Origin: Candidatus Nomurabacteria bacterium
GTDB lineage: Bacteria > Patescibacteriota > Saccharimonadia > Saccharimonadales > Saccharimonadaceae
Assembly: GCA_031290255.1 (NCBI GenBank)
Contig: JAITNW010000010.1
Location: forward strand, 1 to 52,428
Direction of reading: 5' to 3'
Length of the DNA stretch: 52,428 bases
The notes beneath the pieces are model-generated. The model was not told the origin of the DNA. It made no database searches and saw nothing but the letters and a program-made list of their open reading frames with translations. Positions within the stretch are counted from its first letter, which is position 1, and each line of letters begins with the position of its first letter. Position numbers and translations under genes: made by a program. Positions 1 through 49,150 of the stretch are shown in pieces.

Positions 1-177
1 CGTCAGAGCGGGTGGCAGGACATAGGAGCCCTCAAAGTTTCAAATAATTGTTCCATCATACCCGCGGTATTACCCAAGAAATTTGCAGGCAAACTGCCGG
101 CAGGGGCCTTGCAGTGTAATATTTCTAAGGAAGCAATTTTTGAGACTTTGAGGAAAATGTCCTGACAGGACCCGCCC
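1..177. repeat. Palindromic element A, copy 1
   Basis: This stretch matches the reverse complement of 15730-15906 without indels; by eye 174 of 177 bases agree, with the three differences clustered near 118-125. The element is itself an imperfect palindrome: about 45 bases at each end pair with each other (GAGCGGGT..CAGGACA..CTCAAAG against the other end), and the middle holds the perfect palindrome CTGCCGGCAG. The first base of the window coincides with the last matching base of copy 2, so the contig or window may begin at the element edge and more could lie to the left. An open frame crosses it but has no start signal or family resemblance, so it is not called as a gene. Confidence 0.85.
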
Positions 178-15729: not shown

Positions 15730-15906
15730 GGGCGGGTCCTGTCAGGACATTTTCCTCAAAGTCTCAAAAATTGCTTCCTTGGATATACTACACTGCAAGG
15801 CCCCTGCCGGCAGTTTGCCTGCAAATTTCTTGGGTAATACCGCGGGTATGATGGAACAATTATTTGAAACTTTGAGGGCTCCTATGTCCTGCCACCCGCT
15901 CTGACG
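15730..15906. repeat. Palindromic element A, copy 2
   Basis: This is the inverted, nearly identical partner of 1-177 (174 of 177 bases, no gaps). The ends GGGCGGGTCCTGTCAGGACA and the other flank pair to give a long interrupted hairpin, and the centre holds CTGCCGGCAG. It lies upstream of the promoter of the small exported protein and downstream of a terminator hairpin. With copy 1 it brackets 15.6 kb of ordinary genes in inverted orientation. It contains no recognisable transposase and no gene. Confidence 0.85.
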
Positions 15907-26245: not shown

Positions 26246-27375
26246 TTTATTGGGGAACGGGGGCTGATGTCTAGGTCGTAGGGATCTGTGGGTTTTTGGC
26301 CGGATTTGATGCTGAAGTGGGCGGCTGAGGCTACCATGGCGGCGTTGTCGGTGCAGAGGTTTGGTTGCGGAAAGAACAGCATGGGCTGTCTGGCGATCGA
26401 CTTCGTTGCGGGGAAAAAACTGTTTACAGGCAGTTTTTTCTCCGACTGCAGGTGCTCGCCAGACAGCCCATGCTGTGCTTTCCCCGACGCTAAGTGGATC
26501 ATCTCTTGGCGGAGGAGTGCATTGGCGGAGACGCCGCCGGCTAGTATGAGGGATTTGGGGTGGTAGGCTTGGAGGGCTTTTTGGGTTTTCTTGGTGAGGG
26601 CTTCTATGGCGGTTTTTTGGAAGGAAGCGGCGAAATCGTTAATCTGTTTGTTTGTTAATTTGGCGGCTAGGGTGCTTGAGGGGGTGCTGATGGGGAGGCT
26701 GAGGTCTTTTTGGACGGCTCGGAGGACGGCGGTTTTGAGGCCGCTGAAGGAGAAATCGTAGTTTGCTACTTTTGGGATGGGGAGTTTGTAGGCTTCGGGG
26801 TTACCTTTGAGGGCGGCACTAGCTATGGAGGGGCCGCCGGGGTAGGGGAGGCCGAGAATTTTGGCGATTTTGTCGAAGACTTCGCCGATGGCGTCGTCGC
26901 GGGTGGTGCCGATGATTTCAAAATGGTTGTGGTTAGTCATGTGGATGAGTTGGGTGTGGCCGCCGGAGACTACTAGGGCGATGAGGGGGAACTCTGGGAG
27001 TTTTTCTTTGCCGAGCCAGTTGGCGTAGATATGGGATTTGAGGTGGTGGATGGGGTAGATGGGGATGTTATGGAGGATGCTTAGGGTGCGGGCGGCGAGG
27101 GTGCCGATGAGGAGGGAGCCGAGTAGGCCGGGGGTGTGGGTGACGGCGATGGCGTCGAGGTTTGCCCAAGTGAGGTTGGCTTCTGAGAGGGCTTGATGGA
27201 TGACGGGGAGGATGGCTTCGATGTGGCTGCGGGCGGCGATCTCTGGGACTACTCCGCCGTAGGTGGCGTGAATGTCGATTTGGGAGACTACGATGTTGGA
27301 TAGGATCTGGGTGCCGTTTTTTACTATGGAGGCGGCGGTTTCGTCACAGCTGGTTTCTATGCCTAGGATTGTCAT
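26242..27375 (-). CDS. tsaD: tRNA N6-threonylcarbamoyladenosine transferase
   Basis: This 377-residue ASKHA-fold protein installs threonylcarbamoyl on A37 of ANN-decoding tRNAs with TsaB, TsaE and TsaC. GIETSCDETAASIV opens the protein; PEIAARSHIEAI and HHLKSHIYANWL carry metal-binding histidines. VVSGGHTQLIHM, LPYPGGPSIA and ILAGGVSANALLR are typical. Between GGVSAN and LCTDNAAM there are 55 residues, about 30 more than I recall for standard TsaD, and this extra part coincides with palindromic element B. The start at 27375 is supported by an extended TATAAT 7 bases upstream; the longer frame to 27489 runs through element C and is not credible. Confidence 0.95.
   Translation of the reverse strand: MTILGIETSCDETAASIVKNGTQILSNIVVSQIDIHATYGGVVPEIAARSHIEAILPVIHQALSEANLTWANLDAIAVTHTPGLLGSLLIGTLAARTLSILHNIPIYPIHHLKSHIYANWLGKEKLPEFPLIALVVSGGHTQLIHMTNHNHFEIIGTTRDDAIGEVFDKIAKILGLPYPGGPSIASAALKGNPEAYKLPIPKVANYDFSFSGLKTAVLRAVQKDLSLPISTPSSTLAAKLTNKQINDFAASFQKTAIEALTKKTQKALQAYHPKSLILAGGVSANALLRQEMIHLASGKAQHGLSGEHLQSEKKLPVNSFFPATKSIARQPMLFFPQPNLCTDNAAMVASAAHFSIKSGQKPTDPYDLDISPRSPIN
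26369..26483. repeat. Palindromic element B, in frame inside tsaD
   Basis: Arms 26369-26396 and 26456-26483 (28 bases, one mismatch) pair as a long stem with core ACAGCATGGGCTGTCTGGCG. Inside them a second perfect stem, GAAAAAACTG (26413-26422) with CAGTTTTTTC (26431-26440), is separated by unpaired bulges. The element lies entirely within the tsaD reading frame, at about residues 298-336, and has no stop codon in that frame. The layout, an outer arm, a bulge and an inner hairpin in about 115 bp, is like element C 0.9 kb away, though the sequences differ. Confidence 0.8.
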
Positions 27376-27406
27376 TCTGAATATTATACCATAATAGTGC
27401 ATGGGA

Positions 27407-27520
27407 GAAAAATCTAAGAACAGAACTTTAAACATTAGGAGTGCTTGCGCAGGAAAGCAGCCCCTCTGGGTGCTTTCTCTGGCTCGCAATAATGTTTAAA
27501 GTTCTGTTCTTAGATTTTTC
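27407..27520. repeat. Palindromic element C upstream of tsaD
   Basis: Arms 27407-27437 and 27490-27520 are perfectly complementary over 31 bases (core AAGAACAGAACTTTAAAC). The loop contains TTGCG/CGCAA and GAAAGCA/TGCTTTC as further nested stems. It lies 18 bases upstream of the tsaD -10 hexamer and downstream of the KilA-N gene, which is 238 bases away. It is too long and lacks a T-run in the usual place for a simple terminator. Confidence 0.8.
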
Positions 27521-27758
27521 TTGACGCTATGTGGAGTTCTTGGGCGATTATCTCCCAACAACAAGTAATCCCAAATGAATCTCATTGTGCTGCAATAATA
27601 CTGTTAAACCTTTTTAATTCATTAGAGAACTTTTGTTAATTTTCACACTGGACAGCAACTATGCATCTTCTAGTGTGAAGACTCTGGTTGAAAATGTTTA
27701 GCGACTGCGTATGGTTGCTTTTTTAATTATCTCTAAGAATTTCTTTTTGGACATATCG
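27521..27758. other. Non-coding gap downstream of the KilA-N gene
   Basis: No gene, tRNA or clear terminator is seen. The base composition is more AT-rich than in the neighbouring genes, as in the KilA-N gene itself, suggesting that both arrived together. With element C the total gap between the tsaD start and the KilA-N stop is 383 bases. Confidence 0.4.
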
Positions 27759-28622
27759 CTAGCTACCTGAGTCTAAGTAGGTTTCACTATCTAGTTTCTT
27801 CAGCCCCTTGACTGGGTCTACTCGGTTTAACGCTTCTTTTTGTCGATTTGCCATCTCTAAAAGTCTGTTGAATCTATCTTCTGGTGGTATTTTTTTCGAT
27901 ATCAAATTCGCACTCTCTACTTGCATGTTTTCTAGTACTAAAAGCTCAGTTATGCTGGCTGAGTCACGGATATTCTCTCCTGCTTTTGCCCTGTCAGGAT
28001 GGTTCTCTCTCCACTCTTTTGCTGTCGTGCCGAACAGAGCAAGGTTAATTATATCTGCTTCCGATGCGTACTTGTACGATTTTGCCCAAGGTAAAGTAGA
28101 TGAAATAAGGTGTTGTTTTACGGCGTCCGTATGCACTGTATATGTCGAACTAGCAATAATTCTTCTTACATCCCACTCTAAGTTGTATTTATTGCTTTCA
28201 ATCTCCTTGAGGCGCTGGTAGTCCTTGATGAGATATAGCTTGAATGCGGGGCTGATCCATGTTCCAAACTCGAAAGCGATGTCTTTGTGTGCATAGGTTC
28301 CACCATTCCTGCCAGGAATCGATATTATGCCAGTCGCACCGGTGGCATTTACCCATTTTGCCGGAGTCATAGTAAATTTGTTTGCACCAGCTTCGTACAT
28401 AAAGGTGTCGAATTCGACACCTTTAAATTTCGGGTTATTCATGGTCTCCCATGTACCTAAAAACTCTATAGTATTTCGATTCCTCATCCAGTTTTTGATA
28501 TGATCGTCGCCATCAAGATTCTTGACCATATCTGTTAGAGAGATATAATCCTCGCCCTTGATACGCTTTAGGGAAATTTGGTTATCATCTACTTTCAGTT
28601 GGCGATTTTTCTTATCAAACAT
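27759..28622 (-). CDS. KilA-N domain protein
   Basis: This 287-residue protein has a KilA-N DNA-binding domain, typical of phage antirepressors and mobile elements. The domain runs through ISLTDMVKNLDGDDHIKNW (residues about 28-46), a WVNATGATGI stretch and HKDIAFEFGTWISPAFKLYL, the most conserved KilA-N segment. The C-terminal half is helical and less conserved (AKEWRENHPDRAKAGENIRD). TATAAT, preceded by TGTAG, ends 6 bases before the ATG. Codon use is more AT-rich and less G-biased than in the neighbours, a sign of transfer. No phage genes are adjacent. Confidence 0.85.
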   Translation of the reverse strand: MFDKKNRQLKVDDNQISLKRIKGEDYISLTDMVKNLDGDDHIKNWMRNRNTIEFLGTWETMNNPKFKGVEFDTFMYEAGANKFTMTPAKWVNATGATGIISIPGRNGGTYAHKDIAFEFGTWISPAFKLYLIKDYQRLKEIESNKYNLEWDVRRIIASSTYTVHTDAVKQHLISSTLPWAKSYKYASEADIINLALFGTTAKEWRENHPDRAKAGENIRDSASITELLVLENMQVESANLISKKIPPEDRFNRLLEMANRQKEALNRVDPVKGLKKLDSETYLDSGS

Positions 28623-33672: not shown

Positions 33673-33777
33673 ATGCGAGATAAGTCTGTTTTGGAGTTGG
33701 CTTTGGCGTTGTTTAATATGGGGTTGTCTTTTGGGTTGATGATGCTTTTGGCTAGATATATTAAGAAAAAGAGATAA
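33673..33777 (+). CDS. 34-residue membrane micropeptide
   Basis: The frame reads MRDKSVLELALALFNMGLSF and continues to ARYIKKKR before TAA. It has one hydrophobic helix of about 22 residues with a basic C-terminal tail, so it is a single-pass membrane peptide. It has a good promoter, a GGAGG site at the correct distance and a sensible topology, which makes it likely real despite its length. It has no recognised family. The large palindrome D begins at the base after its stop codon and would form the end of its mRNA. Confidence 0.6.
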   Translation: MRDKSVLELALALFNMGLSFGLMMLLARYIKKKR

Positions 33778-33922
33778 AGAAAAGTAGCTCAACCTCTGCC
33801 AGAGAGGCCCTTCCCAAGTGCGCGCCCGTCTTTACGGGGCGCAGGCGCTGCAGTTGGCTGGAAGTAGGGGTGTGCACACCCCTCTTCCACATCCTCTCTG
33901 GCAGAGGTTGAGCTACTTTTCT
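33778..33922. repeat. Palindromic element D with internal cloverleaf-like stems
   Basis: Arms 33778-33807 and 33893-33922 are perfectly complementary over 30 bases. Between them are two independent stems: GCGCCC..GGGCGC (33822-33827 with 33837-33842), and GGAAG-T-AGGGGTGTGCACACCCCT-CTTCC (33860-33888), whose centre is an 18-base perfect palindrome. The fold is a three-way junction of 145 bases. It separates the convergent micropeptide gene and the amino-acid permease gene and is open to use as a terminator for both. Confidence 0.85.
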
Positions 33923-33925
33923 CTC

Positions 33926-35368
33926 CTAATGCTTTGTGGGGGAGTTTTTGGTTTGGAGTTGGTAGATGATGAAGGGGGCGGAGAGGGCTAGGATGGAGGT
34001 GGGGATGAGGGCTAGGAAGTAGGGGGGGATTTCGCTGGGGGTGAGAGTGTTTGGGGGGACGAAAGAGATGATGATGCAGAATAATGTCGTGAGGAGGCCG
34101 ATGATGGCGGTGAGGATTTTGATAGGTTGGCCGCCGGGGACTTCGAAGCGTCGCTTGAGGTGTTTTTGTTGGAAAATTAGCTGGAAATAGCCGGCGTACA
34201 TTAAGATGTATGCAGCGCCGTAGATGACTACAGTGATGGTGATGGCAATGAGAAAGGAAAGGTTGTTGCCACCGCCGATGAGGGTAATGATGGTGATCCA
34301 GATGGTGGTGATGATACTTTGCATAATGACGAGACGGGTGGGGACGCCGTGTTGGTTGGATTTGGAGAATTTTTCTGGAAGGAGGCCGTCGGTGGCGGCT
34401 TGCTGGAGACCTCTGACGGGGCCAATGATCCAGCCACTGATTTCGGACAAAACGCCTGTGGCTATCATTACCGTAAGGATTTTAAGGAGCCAGTCGAAGT
34501 TGGCGTGGAAAAAGCCCAGCGTGAGGTTTAAGGACTGGATAATGCCGGCGTTGAGGGAGAGCTCGGAGCTGGGGACGGTGATGGCGATGGAGAGGCCACC
34601 GATGACGTTGAGGATGATGGCGACGACGGCAACCATAAGGATGGCGATGGGGTAGGTGCGCTTGGGGTTTTTGAGCTCGTTGGTGTAGGAGGCGGAGGCT
34701 TCGATGCCCATGTATGAGAGAATGAAAGAGATGAAGACGACTATGGTGGAGATCTTGGAAAAGTCGGGGATGAGGGCTTCTGTGGTGAATACTACGTGGG
34801 ATTGACCGCCGGAGGCGAGGTAAGCGATGGAGAGGGAGGCCATGAGGATGGCGGGGATGATGATGCCGGCGATGGTGCCGACTTTGTTGATAAGAACGGT
34901 GTGGCGGGAGCCGCGGAGTTGCCAAAGAGACATGATCCAGAAGATAGCGGTGGCGACGAGACATTTGAGGGGCGGACTTTCGTTGAGAGCGGCGAGGCCA
35001 AAGCTGTCGGCGAAAATGCCTACGATAAAATAAAGCATAGCGGTAAAGCCGACGGTGACTTGGAGCCACTGAAAAAAGATGGCGGCGAAGCCGAGTTTTT
35101 TGCCTAAGGTGTTGCGAACCCAGACGAAGATGCCGCCATCATCCCAAGTGTCGACGGTGGCGAGTTCGGCGGCGCAGAGGGCGGTGGGGATGAACCAGAG
35201 GATGGCGCCGACTACTAGGAAGAAGATGAGCTGGAGGCCGGAGGTGGCGAAGACGGGGTATTCGTGGATGTCCATGGTCATGGCTACGGTGATGGCGAAG
35301 AAGCCGAAGAGGGTGATGTGCTTGAGGGGTTTTTGGAGTTTGGATGTTTTGGTTTTGGGGGTTTGCAT
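33926..35368 (-). CDS. APC-superfamily amino acid permease (GadC-like)
   Basis: This 480-residue membrane protein has about 12 hydrophobic segments and belongs to the APC amino acid/polyamine family, closest in pattern to glutamate:GABA-antiporter-like proteins (GGIFVWVRNTLGKKLGFAAIFFQW). It imports or exchanges amino acids, which fits a cell with little amino-acid synthesis. TACAAT, with an upstream TG, ends 6 bases before the ATG. No decarboxylase gene is adjacent, so the acid-resistance function of GadC is not supported here. Confidence 0.9.
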   Translation of the reverse strand: MQTPKTKTSKLQKPLKHITLFGFFAITVAMTMDIHEYPVFATSGLQLIFFLVVGAILWFIPTALCAAELATVDTWDDGGIFVWVRNTLGKKLGFAAIFFQWLQVTVGFTAMLYFIVGIFADSFGLAALNESPPLKCLVATAIFWIMSLWQLRGSRHTVLINKVGTIAGIIIPAILMASLSIAYLASGGQSHVVFTTEALIPDFSKISTIVVFISFILSYMGIEASASYTNELKNPKRTYPIAILMVAVVAIILNVIGGLSIAITVPSSELSLNAGIIQSLNLTLGFFHANFDWLLKILTVMIATGVLSEISGWIIGPVRGLQQAATDGLLPEKFSKSNQHGVPTRLVIMQSIITTIWITIITLIGGGNNLSFLIAITITVVIYGAAYILMYAGYFQLIFQQKHLKRRFEVPGGQPIKILTAIIGLLTTLFCIIISFVPPNTLTPSEIPPYFLALIPTSILALSAPFIIYQLQTKNSPTKH

Positions 35369-48258: not shown

Positions 48259-48774
48259 TTAGAGGACGCTGGAGAGGACGAAGTTGACTATGGCGAAAGC
48301 TAGAATGGCTACTACTAGACCGATGATACCATACATGATGGTGTCTTTGGCTTTTTTGACTTTGCCGCTGTCGCCTTGCGAGGTGGAGTACTGGATGCCA
48401 CCTAGGATGACCATGATTACTGCAATTAGGCCGATGGCGAAGATGATTAGGTTGATGATCAACTGAATGGTCTCATTGAGGCCTCGGGCTTCGCAGGCGT
48501 CTGGGTTAGTAGACAGAGATGCGGCTTTGGCACAGGTTGCGGAATCTTTGCCGTAAATGTTGTATTTTGTGCCGTTCACTTCAATAGTTGCACCAGAGCA
48601 CTTTACTGGGTAGTCGGTGGAGGGCTGCGTGTTGCTAATGACGAGACCGCTGAATTCTCCACCTACATCTGTACCTGTCGGACAGGGGGTGGCAGCAAAA
48701 GTCGGCGCAGCGACAATAACAGTCAAGAAAGCTGCTAGGACTCCGCCTTTTAGAATGGTTTTGATTTTGCTCAT
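48259..48774 (-). CDS. T4SS pilin-like protein (171 residues)
   Basis: The signal peptide is clear (MSKIKTILKGGVLAAFLTVI, cleavage after PTFA). A Cys-containing extracytoplasmic part of about 80 residues follows, then two helices. The second half has ILGGIQYSTSQGDSGKVKKA and TIMYGIIGLVVAILAFAIVN, nearly the same as in the next gene upstream. It has its own promoter region with TATAAT and TACAAT and AAGGAG 9 bases before the ATG, so it can be made apart from the rest of the array. It is the longest of the simple pilins. Confidence 0.8.
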   Translation of the reverse strand: MSKIKTILKGGVLAAFLTVIVAAPTFAATPCPTGTDVGGEFSGLVISNTQPSTDYPVKCSGATIEVNGTKYNIYGKDSATCAKAASLSTNPDACEARGLNETIQLIINLIIFAIGLIAVIMVILGGIQYSTSQGDSGKVKKAKDTIMYGIIGLVVAILAFAIVNFVLSSVL

Positions 48775-48841: not shown

Positions 48842-49150
48842 CTAGAAAATCGAGGCTAGGACGAAGTTGACTATGGAGAAGGCCAGGATGGCGACTACTA
48901 GTCCGATAATACCGTACATAATAGTGTCTTTGGCTTTTTTGAGCTTGCCGGTGTCGCCTTGTGAAGTGGAGTATTGGATACCGCCAAGAATAATCATAAT
49001 TATGGCGACTAGGCCTATCAGACTTATGAATGCAGAAACTAGAATTTGGGCTGGACTGGTGATGTCGGTGCGATCGCCGAGCCCGCTATTATTGATGGCG
49101 TCGTCAACGCCACCAGTGACGGAATTTGCGAATAGGGAGATAAAATTCAT
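48842..49150 (-). CDS. T4SS pilin-like protein (102 residues)
   Basis: The start at 49150 (MNFISLFANSV) is chosen because the preceding gene ends one base before it and AGGAATCC lies upstream; the longer frame to 49216 overlaps the neighbour. It has two hydrophobic helices joined by ILGGIQYSTSQGDTGKLKKA, as in the 171-residue pilin, with which it shares most of this segment. No clear signal peptide cleavage site is seen, so the N-terminal helix may stay as an anchor. Confidence 0.78.
   Translation of the reverse strand: MNFISLFANSVTGGVDDAINNSGLGDRTDITSPAQILVSAFISLIGLVAIIMIILGGIQYSTSQGDTGKLKKAKDTIMYGIIGLVVAILAFSIVNFVLASIF

Follow-up and report, generated by a model that had tools for sequence, protein, structure and literature searches.

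At positions 33,778-33,922 of the window (the whole stretch of DNA analysed here, 52,428 nucleotides), a 145-base palindrome separates two convergent ORFs. To its left lies a plus-strand ORF of 34 codons (33,673-33,777), preceded by a Shine-Dalgarno-like GGAGG and encoding a possible membrane micropeptide (MRDKSVLELALALFNMGLSFGLMMLLARYIKKKR*), whose stop codon abuts the element. To its right, 3 nt separate the palindrome from the stop codon of a convergent 480-residue ORF on the minus strand (33,926-35,368), which is labelled permease-like from its sequence. The palindrome is a perfect inverted repeat enclosing two inner stems. Its left arm (33,778-33,807, plus strand) is site-specific, with an inner ~10 bp (GCCAGAGAGG) like that of the inner arms of other intergenic copies; the right arm (33,893-33,922, plus strand) is its exact reverse complement. 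The arms are 30 nt each, 100% complementary, and separated by a spacer of 85 nt. This spacer is the mobile core (33,808-33,892, plus strand), consisting of hairpin 1 (33,814-33,857), which includes CCCGTCTTTACGGG at 33,825-33,838, and hairpin 2 (33,859-33,889), which carries the 18-nt perfect palindrome AGGGGTGTGCACACCCCT (33,866-33,883) and whose tip differs among copies by paired changes. Folding to minimum free energy gives a three-way junction of -104.8 kcal/mol; 200 dinucleotide shuffles yield -58.1 ± 4.5 kcal/mol, none of them as good (z = -10.4). The sequence-only reading had specified this anatomy from arms to junction and had set its first base directly after the stop codon of the 34-residue ORF; arm matching, folding and the ORF coordinates bear it out in every particular. 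No Rfam 15 family matches any of the elements above its gathering score, and the focal palindrome itself is not among the terminators called by a scan.

The focal palindrome is one copy of a small dispersed mobile hairpin, and thus something beyond a lone terminator. In its own genome (G000; 698 kb in 16 contigs) searches by BLAST place the element at 14 separate locations and searches with a covariance model return 15 matches. The cores of these copies are similar (about 90% identical) and their outer arms are unrelated, each copy's two arms nevertheless matching one another. Because near-identical cores are dispersed to unrelated sites, the copies must be considered mobile. The original supposition that such elements share size and design but not sequence therefore needs amendment: within the family the 85-nt core is conserved in sequence and only the arms differ. 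In an alignment of 21 copies, which also shows strong covariation over the focal core, 95.1% of cells are paired, 21 of 35 base pairs have changed on both sides, and none of 500 shuffles does as well; covariation of this strength establishes the core of this family (family 1) as a real conserved structure.

A second family of the same design is represented in the window at 27,406-27,521 by 32-bp perfect arms (27,406-27,437 and 27,490-27,521) around a 52-nt core. The core of family 2 is unrelated to that of family 1; about 13 copies reside in G000, and none was found in the 44 other genomes of the genus. (Core lengths are ~85 nt in family 1 and 52-70 nt in related ones.) Intact family-2 copies have perfect arms of 28-33 bp that are different at each site. 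Of four elements (A-D) originally held to share size and design, this one conforms and is multicopy; the imperfect palindrome at 26,364-26,488, which lies in frame within tsaD near its 3' end and has 55-nt arms (76%), has no second copy in G000. It is possibly the relic of a similar process; in G002, the second genome with family-1 elements, this position of tsaD is occupied by a different insertion.

The relationship between the arms can be stated quantitatively as the score of an anchored alignment of left arm against right arm. In family 1 (21 copies) arms are 30.1 ± 2.8 bp long and 92% paired, scoring 22.2 within a copy as against 2.1 between copies; in family 2 they are 96% paired, with corresponding scores of 29.6 and 3.9. 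The divergent copies from other genomes that are described below score 17.3 within and 1.0 between copies (45 copies). Two families with unrelated cores thus obey the same arm rule. There are two exceptions: the copies in obgE and prmC share their arms, and those in polA and dnaX do so in part; a copy can therefore sometimes move, or be converted, together with its arms.

At least ten copies lie in frame within host genes: obgE, prmC, a YjbR-like gene, polA and dnaX in G000 (the covariance model finds an additional copy near that in dnaX), and obgE, der, dus, tsaD and valS in G002. Mapping of Pfam domains shows that these copies sit between domains. The Der copy separates the two GTPase domains, the PolA copy is placed between the exonuclease and polymerase domains, and the ValS copy between the catalytic and anticodon-binding domains. 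More than one reading frame and both orientations are used. Insertions that broke the frame were presumably lost through selection.

Comparison of filled with empty sites identifies the source of the arms. At the 3' end of rpoD, compared across 18 genomes, an element is present in seven (G048, G022, G009, G003, G018, G052 and G010), with different arms. In five of these seven the last rpoD codons of the species itself recur as their reverse complement in the distal arm, 93-155 nt past the stop codon (TGAAATAAAAAACTCTCTC in G048, CGAATATCTAAA in G009, TTGAAATAGC in G003, AAAATAGCTAATC in G018 and AAATAAAAAACTCTCTC in G022). The rpoD sites that lack the element have a short native terminator or none, and the inverted copy is absent. 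Elsewhere, the gene end GAAAAAGCCTAA at the G046 copy has been conserved in G059, a species with an empty site; what is new is TTTAGGCTTTTT, beyond the core. Within genes the same comparison can be read in codons. The G002 tsaD copy has a right arm coding for LPSFPLIA, where the empty G000 gene has LPEFPLIA, and a left arm that repeats it in inverted form; on balance the gene has gained 39 codons, which is near the size of the core plus one arm. The conserved side is the right arm in G002 dus (ELLKYH) and the left arm in valS (VDE), each gene having a net gain of 32 codons. Only one flank is conserved at the divergent copy L158, whose empty site therefore does not bear on the arms. One arm, then, is pre-existing host flank and the other its reverse-complement copy, and either side can serve as the source. 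The order of the allele at informative sites is flank L - core - inverted copy L' - flank R. A derived allele with a reverse-complement copy of adjacent ancestral sequence, the mark of a template switch, is found at rpoD in five species, at the G046 locus, and in tsaD, dus and valS. No informative empty allele was found for the focal copy; by extension from its relatives, its arms too would have a host flank as their source.

These alleles bear directly on a different origin of the arms, in which the core targets the loops of pre-existing hairpins such as terminators and the arms are simply the old stem. Several intergenic arms, those of the focal copy included, do resemble bidirectional terminators (A-run ... 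T-run), and the empty rpoD sites of G008 and G060 do have a short native hairpin. However, at empty rpoD sites the native hairpin measures ~9-12 bp and has a different sequence, the window contains no core-free perfect hairpin of 28-30 bp, ten copies are inside genes, and the arms hold coding codons whose partner is missing from the empty alleles. Wherever empty alleles exist, a pre-existing hairpin is thus ruled out as the arm source. This account is contradicted at the tested sites and very unlikely as a whole; it could hold for some intergenic copies.

The same codons weigh against the elements being ordinary intrinsic terminators, or a conserved regulatory RNA, with arm complementarity kept by selection. 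The core covaries, and the focal copy is located exactly between two convergent genes, as this interpretation would have it; yet selection for pairing cannot match an arm to the reverse complement of a neighbouring gene's codons, and no Rfam family matches. The distribution of copies also speaks against it: the 47 intergenic copies with both neighbours assigned are in 9 convergent, 27 tandem and 11 divergent arrangements, and 15 copies are inside ORFs (both tallies rest on crude ORF calls). The description of a G+C-rich hairpin with a T-run downstream of genes holds for some copies and fails for the class. We regard this interpretation as extremely unlikely. Gene orientations and in-gene copies rule out termination as the general role; a copy lying between convergent genes, as the focal one does, may act as a bidirectional terminator. 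We consider the elements to be selfish or neutral, selfish DNA with no host function being the most likely case.

The evidence for a dispersed core with host-copied arms is strong. The process that we propose to account for it, with a probability of roughly 0.66, is that a non-autonomous mobile structured core inserts in a manner coupled to fold-back (template-switch) synthesis that copies about 20-30 nt of the flank. The core is foldable into a three-way junction as single-stranded DNA or as RNA. Starting from a broken end or a single-stranded gap, the core would become attached to flank L at its 3' end, either by joining or by being copied there; its closing stem would fold back; the 3' end would then be extended by ~20-30 nt with L as template, generating L'; and the extended end would finally be joined to R. 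Fold-back is the likely mechanism, and its elements have precedents: template switching yields perfect hairpins in a single event (PMC8794818), and breaks in yeast give rise to fold-back inverted duplications, mostly of 5-34 bp (PMC11724301). Insertions are not of one net length: tsaD gained about the core plus one arm, valS and dus gained less, and the scheme has to allow for some flank having been lost or overwritten.

The main rival to coupled insertion and fold-back is growth in two steps: the core inserts with short arms by some other mechanism, and the palindrome grows outward stepwise through replication template switches (quasipalindrome correction). Such a course would lead to much the same end state. 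Homogenisation of the arms of inverted repeats by template switching is established, and the arms of orthologous copies differ between G008 and G022. Moreover, in the rpoD element of G022 the inner arm reads CTGAAATAA and the outer arm matches the present codons, CTAAAATAA; comparison of the two shows that the arms have been written at least twice. On the other hand, intact young family-2 copies all have perfect arms of 28-33 bp and no series from short to long is seen; nor would stepwise growth be expected to stop uniformly at about 30 bp, short of an outside limit on size. We judge two-step growth to be unlikely, at something over one chance in five. The rpoD position is either a hot spot or the site of an old insertion that has been rewritten several times, and not all of the rpoD insertions need be independent, as some may have been inherited.

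The phylogenetic reach of the elements depends on the stringency with which they are sought. BLAST with family 1 finds matches in one other genome, G002, among 40 relatives. A strict core pattern has as its sole match, in a scan of 84,980 species genomes that may omit records of the window's own genome, the Saccharibacteria MAG Nt197P3bin109 (WRHJ01). Neither core was found in viral contigs; phage records gave no match and plasmid records one match at chance level. A first covariance model (R1) reaches 11 of the 45 genomes of the genus in all, weaker divergent relatives included. These divergent relatives have the same three-way junction and the hairpin with CCCGTCTTTACGGG, the hairpin-1 motif that is present in divergent members from other species and genera, and their arms are again site-specific. 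A second model (R2), built from divergent members, finds relatives in 29 of the 45 genomes of the genus; across the order it reaches 47 of 294 genomes, which belong to three genera within a single family. Its filters being strict, these counts are lower bounds. Nine loci taken from the order-wide search have the same anatomy. A class of structure-defined elements, which had been suspected at the outset, is thus borne out, and the contrary prospect that no other Saccharibacteria genome would hold similar structures falls away. Orthologous copies are common to the species pairs G048/G055, G008/G022 and G048/G022.

This recurrence also disposes of much of the concern that inverted repeats of this kind might be artefacts. 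Inverted chimeras do arise in amplified DNA, and all of the genomes are assemblies of uncertain origin, so that palindromes created during amplification or metagenome assembly deserve consideration. But the core recurs in 47 of 294 genomes and in three genera, copies inside genes maintain the reading frame, and the three species pairs just listed have orthologous copies in common; the probability of an artefact is close to negligible.

Close inverted pairs are frequent among the copies. Among the divergent copies such pairs are seen at L164, L152, L156, L159, L215, L216, L218 and L232, sometimes with only 4-10 bp between the model matches, and recall REP doublets.

Mobility raises the question of a mobiliser. 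None was identified, whether transposase, reverse transcriptase or other; the family searched, in G000 and G002, was Y1. The Y1/RAYT transposase (PF01797) is absent from both genomes (94% and 98% complete, respectively), which are the richest in the family-1 core, and is present in two species that lack that core; it is thereby ruled out as the mobiliser. No copy carries genes of its own, which makes mobilisation in trans plausible. Thus, of the early conjecture that the elements are possibly mobilised in trans, the mobile and gene-free character stands, while the Y1 family, absent from G000 and G002, supplies no partner for it.

Target-site duplications were not found: the similarity of left to right flank is 4.68 within and 4.80 between copies. 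In G000, copies of both families are flanked (to the right of 33,922 and 27,521, for example) by a weak common motif, GCTnTGTTGGGG-like on the left and nAnGCT(nTGTGG) on the right. It was defined after looking and is counted at 9 of 21 right flanks and 1 of 21 left flanks, against a background of 3% for nAnGCT; an unbiased pairwise test of left with left flanks gives 5.03 as against 4.58 ± 0.12. Both families may share a target preference, of which the motif would be the sign.

Among known systems, the palindromic elements of Rickettsia (RPEs) and Wolbachia come closest in placement: they are ~105-146 bp long, dispersed, and found between genes as well as in frame inside conserved protein genes (PMC2229807). 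Palindromes of 100-150 bp in frame within protein genes are what is seen here too. However, RPEs are reported to have terminal inverted repeats of 12 contiguous bp (PMC2229807), whereas the elements considered here have no common terminal repeats, their arms being different at each site and copied from the host; they also occupy several reading frames and both orientations, which sets them apart from RPEs as published. Bacterial MITEs (Correia/NEMIS, ERIC, RUP) are likewise small, gene-free, dispersed, stem-loop-forming and mobile, and are characterised by shared terminal inverted repeats, mostly with target-site duplications (PMC2229807); here, in contrast, no terminal repeat is shared (as the arm scores of 2.1 between and 22.2 within copies attest, the two related pairs excepted) and no duplication was found. 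REPs and REPINs with their RAYTs (GTAG and CGTC families) are palindromic, intergenic and occasionally intragenic, and often occur as inverted pairs (PMC3733652), as these elements frequently do. REPs differ in being 20-40 bp long with an unpaired tag, as against a three-way-junction core of 52-85 nt with 30-bp arms; in family 1, GTAG occurs only within hairpin 2 and CGTC within hairpin 1, neither of them as a tag at the foot, and Y1 transposases are absent from G000 and G002.

The arms have their nearest counterparts among mutational events. Template-switch hairpins (PMC8794818) and yeast fold-backs (PMC11724301) resemble them in that one event writes an adjacent reverse-complement copy of matching size, but those are sporadic mutations, while here the copying goes along with the dispersal of a mobile, conserved core. 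In nematomorph mitochondria perfect inverted repeats occur in protein genes with host codons in their arms, and arm conversion has been proposed (PMC6649704); the repeats are in the genes' own sequence, though, and no moving common core is described there (PMC6649704). The repetitive hairpin elements of sponge mitochondria have conserved stems and variable loops (PMC2800124); they too are invading, hairpin-forming repeats, with a pattern of stem and loop conservation that is the reverse of the one seen here. No description of host-templated arms was found in the open-access literature searched.

It is tempting to go further, and the proposal that follows is tentative, at somewhat less than even odds: these families would constitute a new class of element in Saccharibacteria, in which only the core moves and has no ends of its own, dedicated or recruited machinery copies ~30 nt of the target as new terminal repeats, and two unrelated cores in one genome share the process. 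A transposable element is normally defined by terminal inverted repeats of its own; here the repeats are owned by the host at each site, and repeat finders keyed to shared ends would miss such elements. Long perfect palindromes are usually seen as rare mutational accidents; in these genomes their origin can be seen as a process that recurs and that nature has replicated many times. The same process shows how core proteins of candidate phyla radiation bacteria, whose genomes are tiny, come to acquire in-frame peptides; PolA, DnaX, ObgE and ValS are examples.

Other repeats in G000 deserve mention. Contigs C5, C6, C11, C12 and C14 have, no more than about 130 bp from their ends, family-2 copies whose arms and flanks are nearly identical; their presence at several contig ends is the reason for thinking that a larger repeat enclosing the family-2 element probably breaks the assembly there. 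A 177-bp inverted repeat of 98% identity (window positions 1-177 and 15,730-15,906), one copy of which is at the contig edge, is probably a further assembly-breaking repeat. The window also contains a perfect palindrome of 26 nt at 28,400-28,425 and a 161-nt direct repeat, 83% identical, at 48,275-48,435 and 48,858-49,018.
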